Assembly: GCA_938002605.1 (NCBI GenBank)
Contig: CALLAF010000020.1
Span: 1-64,000 of the forward strand
From: an uncultured Paracoccaceae bacterium
Lineage (GTDB): Bacteria > Pseudomonadota > Alphaproteobacteria > Rhodobacterales > Rhodobacteraceae
Reading direction: 5' to 3'
Length of the DNA stretch: 64,000 bases
Positions 23,752 to 27,657 of this stretch are shown piece after piece. Under the pieces are notes generated by a model, which saw nothing but the letters and a program-made list of their open reading frames with translations, ran no database searches and had not been told where the DNA came from. Positions within the stretch are counted from its first letter, which is position 1; each line of letters opens with the position of its first letter. The translations under genes and the position numbers were made by a program.

Positions 23752-23883
23752 GCCAATCTACCATATTTGGCGCTAGTCTTGCACGCCATGGGCGGTCGGG
23801 CAAGTTGGGCAATGTTAAAGCTTGCCGTGTGACAAGCGTAAGGTTAACAAAGCATTAAGTTATTCAATCTATAGGGCGTTTTG

Positions 23884-24825
23884 ATGTATATTACTTTGGC
23901 CGTATTACTGGCGACCTTTGGCGTGATCATGTTGTCGGTTGAAGACGACGAAGATGACGAAACAGACGGCGAAATCACTGGTACAAGCGGAAATGACGAA
24001 GTTTCAGGCACCGATGGTGACGACATTATTCGTACATGGGCGGGCGATGATATAATTGACGGCGGGGCCGGTGACGACGAAATTCGTCCGGGCGAGGGCG
24101 ATGATGTCGTTTACGGTGGTGACGGACGCGATTGGATCATTGGTAGCCCCGGCAATGACGAGTTGTATGGCCAAGTTGGCGGAGACCGCGTGTTTGGTGG
24201 CGACGGTAACGACTTTATTGACGGCGGATACGGGTCTGACCGTCTGGGTGGCCAAGATGGCGACGATACAATTTTTGGCGGATATGACTCTCGCGACGAA
24301 GGTGGCGTGATTGTCCCCGCGTTGCAGGCGACAGATACGATTACTGGCGGCGACGGTGATGATACGATTTATATTTGGGGCGGCGATGGCACGGCTGACG
24401 GTGAGGATGGGTCAGACGATTTGGTTCTCGTGACTGGCTCAGCCTCGTTGACTGCGGGCGCGGGCGATGGCGATGATTTCTATGTGCTGGCCAATGTCAC
24501 CGATGATCAATTGACCGAAGCGACCATTGAAGATTTTGATCCGGGCCGGGATACGCTCACGTTGACATTGGATCATGTGCCAGAGGGCGGTACATTGCCT
24601 GACGTCGATGTGACCATGACGCAAACCACGATTGATGGGGTGAATGGGGTTCTGGTCGAAGCCGTTTATACCGGACCCGGTGATGTCCCCGGTGATTTCG
24701 AAGGTGCGGTTGCATTTTTGAAAGGTGTGACGACCGATCAGCTTGACGCGACGAATGTCTCGGTTGCTTCAACCCAAGAAGCTGACCTCTTTGATGCAGA
24801 GGCGACAATGGCCGCAATCGCCTGA
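23884..24825 (+). CDS. Calcium-binding RTX-repeat protein with N-terminal membrane anchor
   Basis: A 313-residue acidic protein. Residues 1-18 are a hydrophobic anchor (MYITLAVLLATFGVIMLS), followed by a run of Asp/Glu. From about 35 to 130 it has GGxGxDxxx repeats (GGAGDDEI, GGDGRDWI, GGDGNDFI, GGQDGDDTI), and a second short set appears near 155. These fold as calcium-binding beta rolls. The C-terminal third is a beta domain starting ATIEDFDPGRDTLTL, common in such proteins. No protease or toxin domain is present. I use the ATG at 23884 rather than the TTG at 23881. Likely cell-surface or secreted; role unknown. Confidence 0.85.
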   Translation: MYITLAVLLATFGVIMLSVEDDEDDETDGEITGTSGNDEVSGTDGDDIIRTWAGDDIIDGGAGDDEIRPGEGDDVVYGGDGRDWIIGSPGNDELYGQVGGDRVFGGDGNDFIDGGYGSDRLGGQDGDDTIFGGYDSRDEGGVIVPALQATDTITGGDGDDTIYIWGGDGTADGEDGSDDLVLVTGSASLTAGAGDGDDFYVLANVTDDQLTEATIEDFDPGRDTLTLTLDHVPEGGTLPDVDVTMTQTTIDGVNGVLVEAVYTGPGDVPGDFEGAVAFLKGVTTDQLDATNVSVASTQEADLFDAEATMAAIA

Positions 24826-25021: not shown

Positions 25022-26428
25022 ATGTCCCCCAAAACGCTCTATGATAAAATCTGGGATGCGCATGTCGCGCACGAAGCTGACGACGGCACATGTTTGCTGT
25101 ATATCGACCGTCACCTGGTCCACGAAGTAACCAGCCCACAGGCCTTTGAAGGTTTGCGTATGGCTGGCCGCACAGTACGTGCGCCGGAAAAAACGATCGC
25201 GGTGCCTGATCACAACGTGCCGACGACATTGGACCGCGCGAACGCGGCCACAATGACCGAAGACAGCCGCATTCAGGTCGCCGCACTTGATACAAACGCC
25301 AAAGAATTTGGCCTGCACTATTATCCTGTGTCCGATGTCCGTCAGGGCGTTGTGCACATTGTTGGCCCCGAACAGGGCTGGACCTTGCCCGGCATGACCG
25401 TTGTTTGCGGCGACAGCCACACGGCGACGCACGGTGCGTTCGGGTCTTTGGCCCACGGCATTGGTACGTCCGAGGTGGAACATGTTCTGGCCACGCAAAC
25501 GCTGATCCAGAAAAAATCCAAAAACATGAAGGTTGAAATCACTGGTAAGCTTGCGCCCGGTGTGACCGCCAAAGACATCACCATGGCTGTGATCGGGCAA
25601 ACCGGCACCGCTGGCGGAACTGGTTACGTGATTGAATATTGCGGTGAAGCCATCCAAAGCCTGTCAATGGAAGGCCGGATGACTGTCTGTAACATGGCTA
25701 TCGAGGGTGGCGCGCGCGCTGGCCTGATCGCCCCTGACGAGACTACATATGCCTACTGTAAAGGCCGCCCACACGCGCCAAAAGGTGCGGATTGGGATGC
25801 GGCGTTGGAATATTGGAAAACGCTCTACACTGATGAAGGCGCACATTTCGACAAAGTCTTGACCATCCGCGGCGAAGATATCGCGCCATTGGTCACATGG
25901 GGGACATCACCCGAAGACGTGCTGCCGATCACGGGTGTGGTTCCTGATCCAAGCAGCTTTGAAGGCGGCAAAGCCGGGGCTGTGCAGCGTTCAATCGACT
26001 ATATGGGTCTAGAAGTTGGTCAAAAACTGTCCGATATCAAAATCGATACCGTGTTTATTGGGTCTTGCACCAACGGGCGGATCGAAGATTTTCGCGCCGC
26101 AGCCGCTGTGTTGAAAGGCAAAAAGATCAAAGAGGGGATGCGCGCAATGGTCGTGCCCGGTTCTGGTCTGGTCCGTGCCCAAGCCGAAGAAGAAGGCATC
26201 GCGCAAATCTTTATCGATGCGGGCTTTGAATGGCGGCTTGCGGGCTGTTCCATGTGCCTTGCGATGAACCCCGACCAATTGGCACCGGGCGAACGCTGCG
26301 CATCCACATCAAACCGTAACTTCGAAGGCCGTCAAGGCTATCAAGGGCGCACACACCTGATGTCACCCGCAATGGCTGCTGCCGCTGCAATCACTGGCCA
26401 CCTGACTGATATCCGGGAGATGAACTAA
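25022..26428 (+). CDS. leuC: 3-isopropylmalate dehydratase, large subunit
   Basis: The 468-residue aconitase-family subunit isomerises 2- to 3-isopropylmalate in leucine synthesis with LeuD. The 4Fe-4S ligands are Cys in GSCTNGR and the CSMCLAMN pair. [20 protein letters not shown] and [12 protein letters not shown] are family signatures. The ATG at 25022 follows GGGAGAGGACA. Its TAA overlaps the ATG of the next gene by one base (TAATG). In most relatives that next gene would be leuD itself; here a chimeric lipoprotein gene intervenes. Confidence 0.97.
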
Positions 26429-26463
26429 TGGAAAAATTCACCACACTCAGCGGCATTGCCGCG
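26428..26463 (+). repeat. Duplicate of the first 12 codons of leuD (copy 1)
   Basis: 36 bp encoding [12 protein letters not shown], identical in protein and 33/36 in DNA to the start of leuD at 26845-26880. The three differences are synonymous third-base changes (AAA/AAG, TTC/TTT, ACC/ACG). Similarity fades immediately after codon 12. Confidence 0.92.
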
Positions 26464-26778
26464 CTATGCGCGTTGGCATCTTGTGGTTCGCCGGGCGATA
26501 TATCATTAAGAAACGCGAACTATTTTGGGTTTCAAGTGAATGATGGCACCTTATCTGGCAGTTACAATGGTGCAGGCTACACCAGCACGCTGGTACAGAA
26601 CCAAGTGAAGGGCGCTTGTACAAGTCGACAACTTTCTTCTTATGGGGAGACGCCATTAGAAAATGGGCTAACCGGTTTTACGGCGACTTGTTCAGGAGCT
26701 GCTATTTTCTCGCGTGGTTTTGTTGAGGTTGAGAAGACCCCGCAAGGTAATTTTATGTTTGAGGCATCTGGATCATAA
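26428..26778 (+). CDS. Chimeric small lipoprotein whose signal peptide begins with the LeuD N-terminus
   Basis: A 116-residue ORF starts on the leuC stop (TAATG). Residues 1-12 copy LeuD; they run into LCALASCGSPG, creating a lipobox (Leu-Ala-Ser-Cys, Cys19). The predicted mature part is about 98 residues, beta-rich, with a cysteine in KGACTSRQLS and another in FTATCSGAAIF that could pair. Codon use and AT content look different from leuC and leuD (for example a run through GATATATCATTAAG). Two readings fit: an alien lipoprotein gene landed in leuD and acquired its start, or a resident lipoprotein's 5' end was replaced by leuD sequence. Export as a lipoprotein is predicted, not shown. Confidence 0.7.
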   Translation: MEKFTTLSGIAALCALASCGSPGDISLRNANYFGFQVNDGTLSGSYNGAGYTSTLVQNQVKGACTSRQLSSYGETPLENGLTGFTATCSGAAIFSRGFVEVEKTPQGNFMFEASGS

Positions 26779-26844
26779 GGGTCTCAAGCTTCTCAAAAGA
26801 CAAATTGTATCTCAAAGTCTCTACGAGACTGGGATGAGGGAAAT

Positions 26845-26880
26845 ATGGAAAAGTTTACGACACTCAGCGGCATTGCCGCG
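26845..26880 (+). repeat. First 12 codons of leuD (copy 2 of the duplicated segment)
   Basis: Functional copy of the 36-bp repeat, at the start of intact leuD. A small hairpin (AGTCTC-TAC-GAGACT, 26816-26830) sits just before its ribosome-binding site. Confidence 0.92.
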
Positions 26881-27450
26881 CCACTGCCATTGGTTAACAT
26901 CGACACCGATATGATCATTCCAAAGCAGTTCTTGAAAACCATCAAACGCTCGGGCCTTGGCGCGAACCTGTTTGACGAAATGCGGTTTGATCGTGACGGC
27001 TCGGAAATCGCTGATTTTGTGCTGAACAAGCCACAGTATCGCGACGCACAAATTCTGGTTGCGGGCGATAACTTTGGCTGCGGGTCATCGCGCGAACACG
27101 CGCCTTGGGCGATTGCAGATTTCGGAATTACCTGCGTGATTTCAACATCGTTCGCGGACATCTTCTATAATAACTGCTTCAAAAACGGCATCTTGCCGAT
27201 CACGTTGCCGCAAGAGCAGGTTGATGTGTTGATGAAAGACGCTGAAAAAGGCTCAAACGCGCGGATCGAAGTTGATCTTGAAGCGCAAACTATCACGTCT
27301 TCAGACGGCGATGTGTTCACCTTTGAAGTTGATGCATTCAAGAAACACTGCCTGCTCAACGGCCTTGATGACATTGGGTTGTCGCTAGAAAAAGTGGCCG
27401 CAATTGACAGCTTTGAAGTCAAAGCAGCTGCAGAACGCCCGTGGGTTTGA
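26845..27450 (+). CDS. leuD: 3-isopropylmalate dehydratase, small subunit
   Basis: The 201-residue swivel-domain partner of LeuC is intact. Expected blocks are [20 protein letters not shown], the substrate loop [13 protein letters not shown] and [18 protein letters not shown]. The ATG at 26845 follows GAGGG. leuC lies 416 bp upstream, separated by the chimeric lipoprotein gene, so LeuD is translated from its own ribosome-binding site instead of by direct coupling. A strong terminator follows. Confidence 0.97.
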
Positions 27451-27469
27451 CCCGTTTCTAGATGTTCTG

Positions 27470-27499
27470 AAAAAGGCCGCGAAACATCGCGGCCTTTTT
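27470..27499 (+). terminator. Rho-independent terminator after leuD
   Basis: Stem AAAAGGCCGCG / CGCGGCCTTTT with loop AAACAT and a T-run. Confidence 0.9.
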
Positions 27500-27657
27500 C
27501 TATTTTAGAGACAATATATAAATTTTATTGCAAAATTCTTCAATTTCGTGACACTTCGTGGATAATGTTGTTTTCAGAGGCTTCAAAAGTGAACGTCCGT
27601 TGAGGCTGGTGTATTAAAATATATCCGCAGGTGCTTCGGATGGATACTATGTTGAAG

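Follow-up and report, generated by a model that had tools for sequence, protein, structure and literature searches.

Signal peptides can arise from unrelated sequence, random fragments being able to act as secretion signals, and the source of most of them cannot be traced, since they are so short and evolve so fast. A described route to novel junctions is homology-facilitated illegitimate recombination, in which, as far as the available part of the source describes it, one end is homologous, the other is usually joined at a micro-homology of 3 to 10 bp, and recipient DNA is lost, a deletion being generally observed (PMC3240628). The locus described here lies between leuC and leuD in a window of 64,000 nt (the whole stretch of DNA that was analysed), where a gene appears to be a chimera in which leuD codons 1 to 12 continue in frame into the last part of a lipoprotein leader, with an intact leuD downstream. 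As in homology-facilitated illegitimate recombination, so far as that part of the source goes, there would be one homologous end, one short-match join and a novel junction, read here from the sequence only; the difference lies in the product, an in-frame leader fusion standing beside a second, intact leuD start. The likeness to random-fragment signal peptides is that a leader-like sequence is easy to obtain, with 77 of 265 control fusions passing a lipobox rule (see below), whereas here the source can be identified: it is the beginning of the downstream gene, with its native translation context kept. The chimera thus compared seems to be genuine, with traceable parts, and a variant of known processes rather than a new type of system.

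The leuC, lipoprotein and leuD features are all on the forward strand. The large subunit of isopropylmalate isomerase is encoded by leuC (25022..26428; Pfam Aconitase PF00330, E 3.5e-179), whose TAA stop at 26426-26428 overlaps the ATG of the chimeric lipoprotein ORF (TAATG). This ORF of 116 aa (26428..26778), assigned from the ORF list, the alignment of relatives and the lipobox LASC, begins with the first copy of leuD codons 1 to 12 (copy 1, 26428..26463), which specify its residues 1 to 12 and occupy what appears to be the ancestral, leuC-coupled position of leuD. The following LCALASC (26464..26484) aligns with the leaders of relatives and ends in the codon of the lipobox cysteine, Cys19 (26482-26484); the rest (26485..26778) is the predicted mature lipoprotein domain, recognized by its identity to relatives in the genus and by a structure model. 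Downstream of a 66-bp spacer of 42.4% GC (26779..26844) lies leuD, encoding the small subunit, intact and 201 aa long (26845..27450; Pfam Aconitase_C PF00694, E 3.7e-40), and its codons 1 to 12 (26845..26880) form copy 2. Upstream of leuC, at 23881-24825, there is a 314-aa ORF that by eye is rich in GGDGDD-type, calcium-binding-like repeats and has internal 54-nt repeats.

The two starts have different translation contexts. Upstream of the chimera, a Shine-Dalgarno-like GGGAG (26415..26419) sits in a junction that is the same as in two insert-free relatives (L088 and L090), and it may be a ribosome site left as a legacy of the ancestral leuC-leuD junction. Before leuD there is a putative ribosome site, GAGGG (26836-26840). 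The chimera would therefore inherit leuD's coupled start together with GGGAG, and leuD would now rely on GAGGG. Just before the latter, the spacer carries a perfect inverted repeat, AGTCTC-TAC-GAGACT (26816-26830), with a putative function; it is the only match in the window at up to two mismatches, with 0.80 expected by chance. The terminator scan gave no terminator-like site on the forward strand between leuC and leuD and found a terminator-like hairpin of 14 pairs 3′ of leuD (27469..27500), so leuC, the lipoprotein gene and leuD are likely to share one transcript. GC content is 47.0% in the lipoprotein part, 42.4% in the spacer, 56.0% in leuC and 49.8% in leuD, and at third positions 40.4, 60.1 and 58.2% in the lipoprotein part, leuC and leuD, respectively. 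The insert had been called AT-richer than its flanks, which is so against leuC; against leuD the overall difference is weak (47.0 vs 49.8% GC) and becomes clear at third positions.

Copy 1 and copy 2 are alike over 37 nt (26428-26464 vs 26845-26881, 92% identity); across codons 1 to 12 they agree at 33 of 36 bases and encode the same 12 residues. The three mismatches are the third positions of codons 3, 4 and 5 (AAA/AAG, TTC/TTT and ACC/ACG), all synonymous, which bears out the preliminary description of a repeat with synonymous changes only. Codons 6 to 12 are without difference, 22 exact bases are common to both copies, and the position of the join is blurred by base 26464, which lies past codon 12 and is also shared. 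At equal base frequencies, the chance of at least 33 matches in 36 is 4e-17 per site. The pair is the only one with at least 26 of 36 bases equal among 964 pairs of ORF starts from 410,852 bases of the same genome (the window and 20 further stretches; ORFs on the same strand, at least 80 aa, starting at the first ATG after a stop, at most 5 kb apart). When the 503 bases at 26378-26880 were compared with their own genome, one full match was obtained, the ten others being 15 to 28 bases long with E above 1. No other leuC-leuD gap longer than 32 bp contained a copy of a leuD start, the best 36-nt match being 22/36, among 56 of 56 genomes of the genus and 74 of 80 contig loci, two sets that partly overlap. 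The codon changes in copy 2 are not clearly explained by mRNA folding at the two starts (−18.2 kcal/mol, compared with −20.2 kcal/mol when the codons of copy 1 are used). Because the third-position difference of 3/12 equals that between this leuD and those of its nearest relatives (0.24), the copies look like two alleles rather than a fresh duplication; the earlier suggestion had been that the duplication is not very recent or that its donor was another strain.

Which copy stands in its native place is suggested by the closest relatives. Among the genomes of the genus, G070 (locus L088), G064 (locus L090) and G030 have the leuD closest to the window's; none of the three has an insert, and leuC overlaps leuD in a TAATG; their amino acid identities to the window are 99.4%, 99.6% and 96.6% in leuC and 98.5%, 97.0% and 97.0% in leuD, respectively. 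G008, G005 and G078 are likewise without insert. The first 20 nt of leuD in G070, G064 and G030 are identical to copy 1, and copy 2 has three mismatches in that stretch. As these insert-free relatives carry the copy 1 sequence right after leuC, copy 1 is, on this comparison, the original start of leuD, still where it was, and the added one is copy 2. The preliminary description, which took the first codons of the lipoprotein gene for a copy of leuD's, was right that they are leuD codons, and the native position belongs to copy 1 instead of copy 2. In the leuD tree the window groups with L088 and L090 (support 98/98), and third-position divergence from these two loci is 0.23 to 0.24 in leuC and in leuD alike, which together argue that both genes are of the local lineage. 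The divergence changes little from one side of the insert to the other, except for a 75-base dip to 79% to 81% in the middle of leuC, and no clear donor-like tract or recombination boundary was seen in leuC or leuD. By parsimony, gain of the insert on the window's branch is simpler than repeated loss; this reading draws on leuD and parsimony, as the leuC tree leaves the exact place of the window unresolved (forks 79/84).

The lipoprotein itself belongs to a family that recurs at this boundary. An initial search, which covered both near and distant relatives, found homologues in 5 of 59 other genomes, and a profile search of the whole genus placed the lipoprotein in 6 of 56 genomes including the window's, in all six between leuC and leuD. 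In the other five (G032, G026, G023, G015 and G001) the gene overlaps or closely follows the leuC stop, and the proteins start with MMTDLQG, MRTDLKM, MRRKTKL, MRFDGSI (or MRKPRLA from a later start) and MKKHINV, none of them LeuD-like. The window protein thus shares its mature domain and its place with these relatives (42% to 51% identity to four and, for the fifth, 45% across 73 residues; E 4.9e-33 to 2.3e-15), whereas they have leaders of their own and only the window copy begins with residues 1 to 12 of LeuD. A comparison of the leuC-leuD interval across relatives had been proposed in the preliminary description, and natural lipoprotein starts that already read these 12 residues would have counted against it; the closest genomes proved insert-free, and the five carriers have unrelated leaders. 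In the mature part the window protein keeps 12 of 13 columns that are invariant in six other aligned members, without a stop, and 38 of the 58 on which the four closest members all agree.

The lipoprotein also occurs beyond the genus. With 11 preselected candidates scored per genome, the profile matches at least 14 of 394 genomes of the wider taxonomic family, the 14 being the window's and G015 within the genus and 12 outside it. Four of the 12 (G161, G232, G351 and G337) have the gene at leuC-leuD; for the other eight, two of which are weak matches near E 0.001 (G382 and G310), no leuC or leuD lies within the 5 to 7 kb read around the gene. Members at leuC-leuD were also seen in Salipiger pallidus L071 and L029, and in G373 a homologue lies beside genes that by eye encode ATP synthase. 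In G337 (locus L170) a single leuC-leuD gap holds two tandem matches to the profile, the second with one in-frame stop. The profile also matches two Paracoccus yeei plasmids and gave no match in the phage records searched. On one of these plasmids (L195:3923-4333, NZ_CP044082.1) the homologue has downstream of it genes for a GntR regulator and for branched-chain amino acid ABC transport, possibly a second link to branched-chain amino acids, seen in the single region read. Pfam has no family for any of the seven aligned members, and NCBIfam gave weak scattered matches (best E 0.0076) and none for the window protein. A structure model built from three sequences has a compact beta-beta-alpha-beta-beta-beta-beta domain (mean pLDDT 75.6), fairly confident from about residue 30 and below 50 for residues 1 to 27; its comparison with the PDB gave nothing at E up to 0.001 (best E 0.15, TM 0.22). 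We take the members to be small lipoproteins in which two cysteines are conserved and may form a pair.

The boundary appears to be a recurrent insertion site in the genus, since 25 of 56 genomes, the window's included, have more than 50 bp there. Both leuD and the leuC-leuD distance were obtained in all 56, the gap being at most 50 bp in 31, 51 to 300 bp in seven and above 300 bp in 18; in ten of the 25 with the longer gaps, again including the window, the start of an ORF overlaps the leuC stop. Contig loci retrieved by leuD similarity, some of which are genomes of the genus set, gave 35, ten and 29 in the same classes (74 of 80, six having been dropped with leuC out of reach). Inspection by eye indicates that unrelated genes for apparently exported proteins recur at this boundary in the genus, some starting on the leuC stop codon. 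The gaps of L092 and L157 contain a lipoprotein of another family, those of L138, L141, L146, L147, L148, L150, L151 and L154 contain ORFs with twin-arginine-like starts, and that of L106 a secreted-looking ORF, all judged by eye. Other gap ORFs, mostly outside the genus, do not look exported. In Thalassospira a similar 62-aa ORF (MAD...INFRESAPRLGRAPVLE...) lies between leuC and leuD in four of four loci (L078, L080, L083 and L084).

A single explanation that covers these observations, and that we consider probable, is recombination of a leuC-leuD allele with one that has the lipoprotein gene between leuC and leuD, an event which left the product with a putative type II leader. Homologous pairing at one end, most simply placed in leuC, would have been combined with an illegitimate join at the other, where leuD codons 11 to 13 and the h-region of the lipoprotein would share a short match; GCCGCGC, at most, would be the likely candidate for this micro-homology. 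The translation start and first twelve codons of leuD would thereby have been kept and the lipoprotein's own start dropped. In the direction that we prefer, DNA with leuC and the leuD start of an insert-free strain would have been taken up by a strain that had the lipoprotein gene, with recombination in leuC and the join inside the leader. Translation of the lipoprotein would then begin at the former start of leuD on the transcript of leuC and leuD, and the protein would be exported through Sec and receive its lipid at Cys19, with K3 as the n-region charge, LSGIAALCALA as the h-region and LASC as the lipobox; LeuD would be made from the second start. Every route to the chimera needs a donor with the lipoprotein beside leuD and one illegitimate join, and such donors exist in the genus. 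The loci examined held no close donor: outside its own genome, the 380-bp insert has at E below 0.1 one nucleotide match, of 67 bp at 72%, in G032. No second strain is known to carry the chimera, and the literature searched contained no description of this locus or of a lipoprotein whose leader derives from leuD.

The leader is compatible with this explanation. The PROSITE PS51257 rule, which we take to require a Cys at 15 to 35, six uncharged residues before it and a Lys or Arg in the first seven, is passed by the chimera with Cys19, LASC, K3 and 15 uncharged residues before the cysteine. Its peak 8-residue hydropathy of 2.73 and net charge of 0 fall within the ranges of eight other rule-positive ORFs in 411 kb of the same genome (1.86 to 2.80 and −1 to +2), some of which, for example MKHLEFDYVIVGAGSAGC in L178, are probably not lipoproteins. 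Four of the five genus relatives pass, with charges of +2 to +4, above that of the chimera; the fifth, L002, fails, which keeps the rule from being decisive for the family. In a control, codons 1 to 12 of other gene starts (ORFs above 600 bases, leuD itself excluded) were fused to LCALASC; 77 of 265 passed, and 26 of 265 were rule-positive and at least as hydrophobic. Passing the rule is for this reason weak evidence of function, and by the same count enzyme starts that can complete a leader would not be rare, and the event would need no special pleading. A leader score matrix, which put the fusion above all ten of its training leaders and scored 93 of 643 control fusions as high, was not relied on, given only ten training leaders and controls that include at least 21 leuD-like starts. 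The earlier proposal that the leuD start became the n- and h-region of a lipoprotein at the leuC-coupled start fits the junction of insert-free relatives and the unrelated leaders of the five other carriers; it has to be narrowed in that the leuD-derived part is residues 1 to 12, which would supply the n-region but only the beginning of the h-region, LCALASC being most likely a remnant of the lipoprotein's own leader.

The transfer might also have run in the opposite direction, a lipoprotein-free allele taking up, at leuD codon 12, a donor piece with the end of the lipoprotein gene, the spacer and the first codons of leuD, the homologous crossover being in the leuD start itself. It explains the data nearly as well as the preferred direction, and we judge it possible, if somewhat unlikely. 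The differences between the copies all fall in codons 3 to 5, and codons 6 to 12 are identical, as if a donor tract ended there, and the absence of a clear donor-like tract in the flanks also speaks for it; yet the crossover would have to fall within a very short stretch, and at about 24% third-position divergence seven codons free of difference are not rare. It would moreover leave a duplicated target, whereas homology-facilitated illegitimate recombination generally deletes, according to the available part of PMC3240628. The 37-nt direct repeats around the 380-bp insert could suggest instead a mobile piece that entered leuD after codon 12 with a 37-bp target duplication, a reading that we find very improbable: the repeats differ at three sites, 380 bp leaves little room for a transposase (the ORFs are the lipoprotein and short overlapping frames), and the insert starts in frame in the middle of a leader and ends at the leuD start, so that the order lipoprotein-leuD would already be needed in the donor, an order that exists in relatives. 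We give equally little credence to an assembly artefact in which two strains were joined at the common 22-mer. The genome is a draft of 64 contigs and the copies do have 22 exact bases in common, but such a join would also need reads running from leuD into lipoprotein sequence, leuD and the lipoprotein gene each have one match in the genome, and contamination is listed as 0.09.

A different kind of doubt concerns the product. The chimera could be real but dead or untargeted, a recombination by-product that is poorly translated or stays in the cytosol and is open only as it is recent, and this seems to us rather unlikely. The insert may be young, since it is absent from the nearest species, the leader charge is 0, and the rate at which other gene starts pass the lipobox rule lends the leader little weight. 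Against this, the frame is kept over the join, the translation context is inherited from leuD, the mature part is open and keeps 12 of the 13 invariant columns, and the hydropathy of the leader falls in the range seen in the other rule-positive ORFs.

Recombination of the two alleles with a putative leader as its outcome, our preferred explanation, would make the chimera a clean example of the source of a leader, the first residues of an enzyme being reused, by prediction, in an export signal. For this one leader the source can be set beside relatives that lack the insert and relatives whose leaders are ordinary, and whether a leader reuses an enzyme's first dozen residues can therefore be asked directly; the same locus bears on the fate of the enzyme whose start was taken. 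That the chimera is young and working, the enzyme start and its translational coupling having been turned into a leader in one step at a boundary that repeatedly swaps in genes for exported proteins, is a reading on which we find the balance even. If it is true, genes swapped in at the leuC-leuD boundary can take over the start of leuD.
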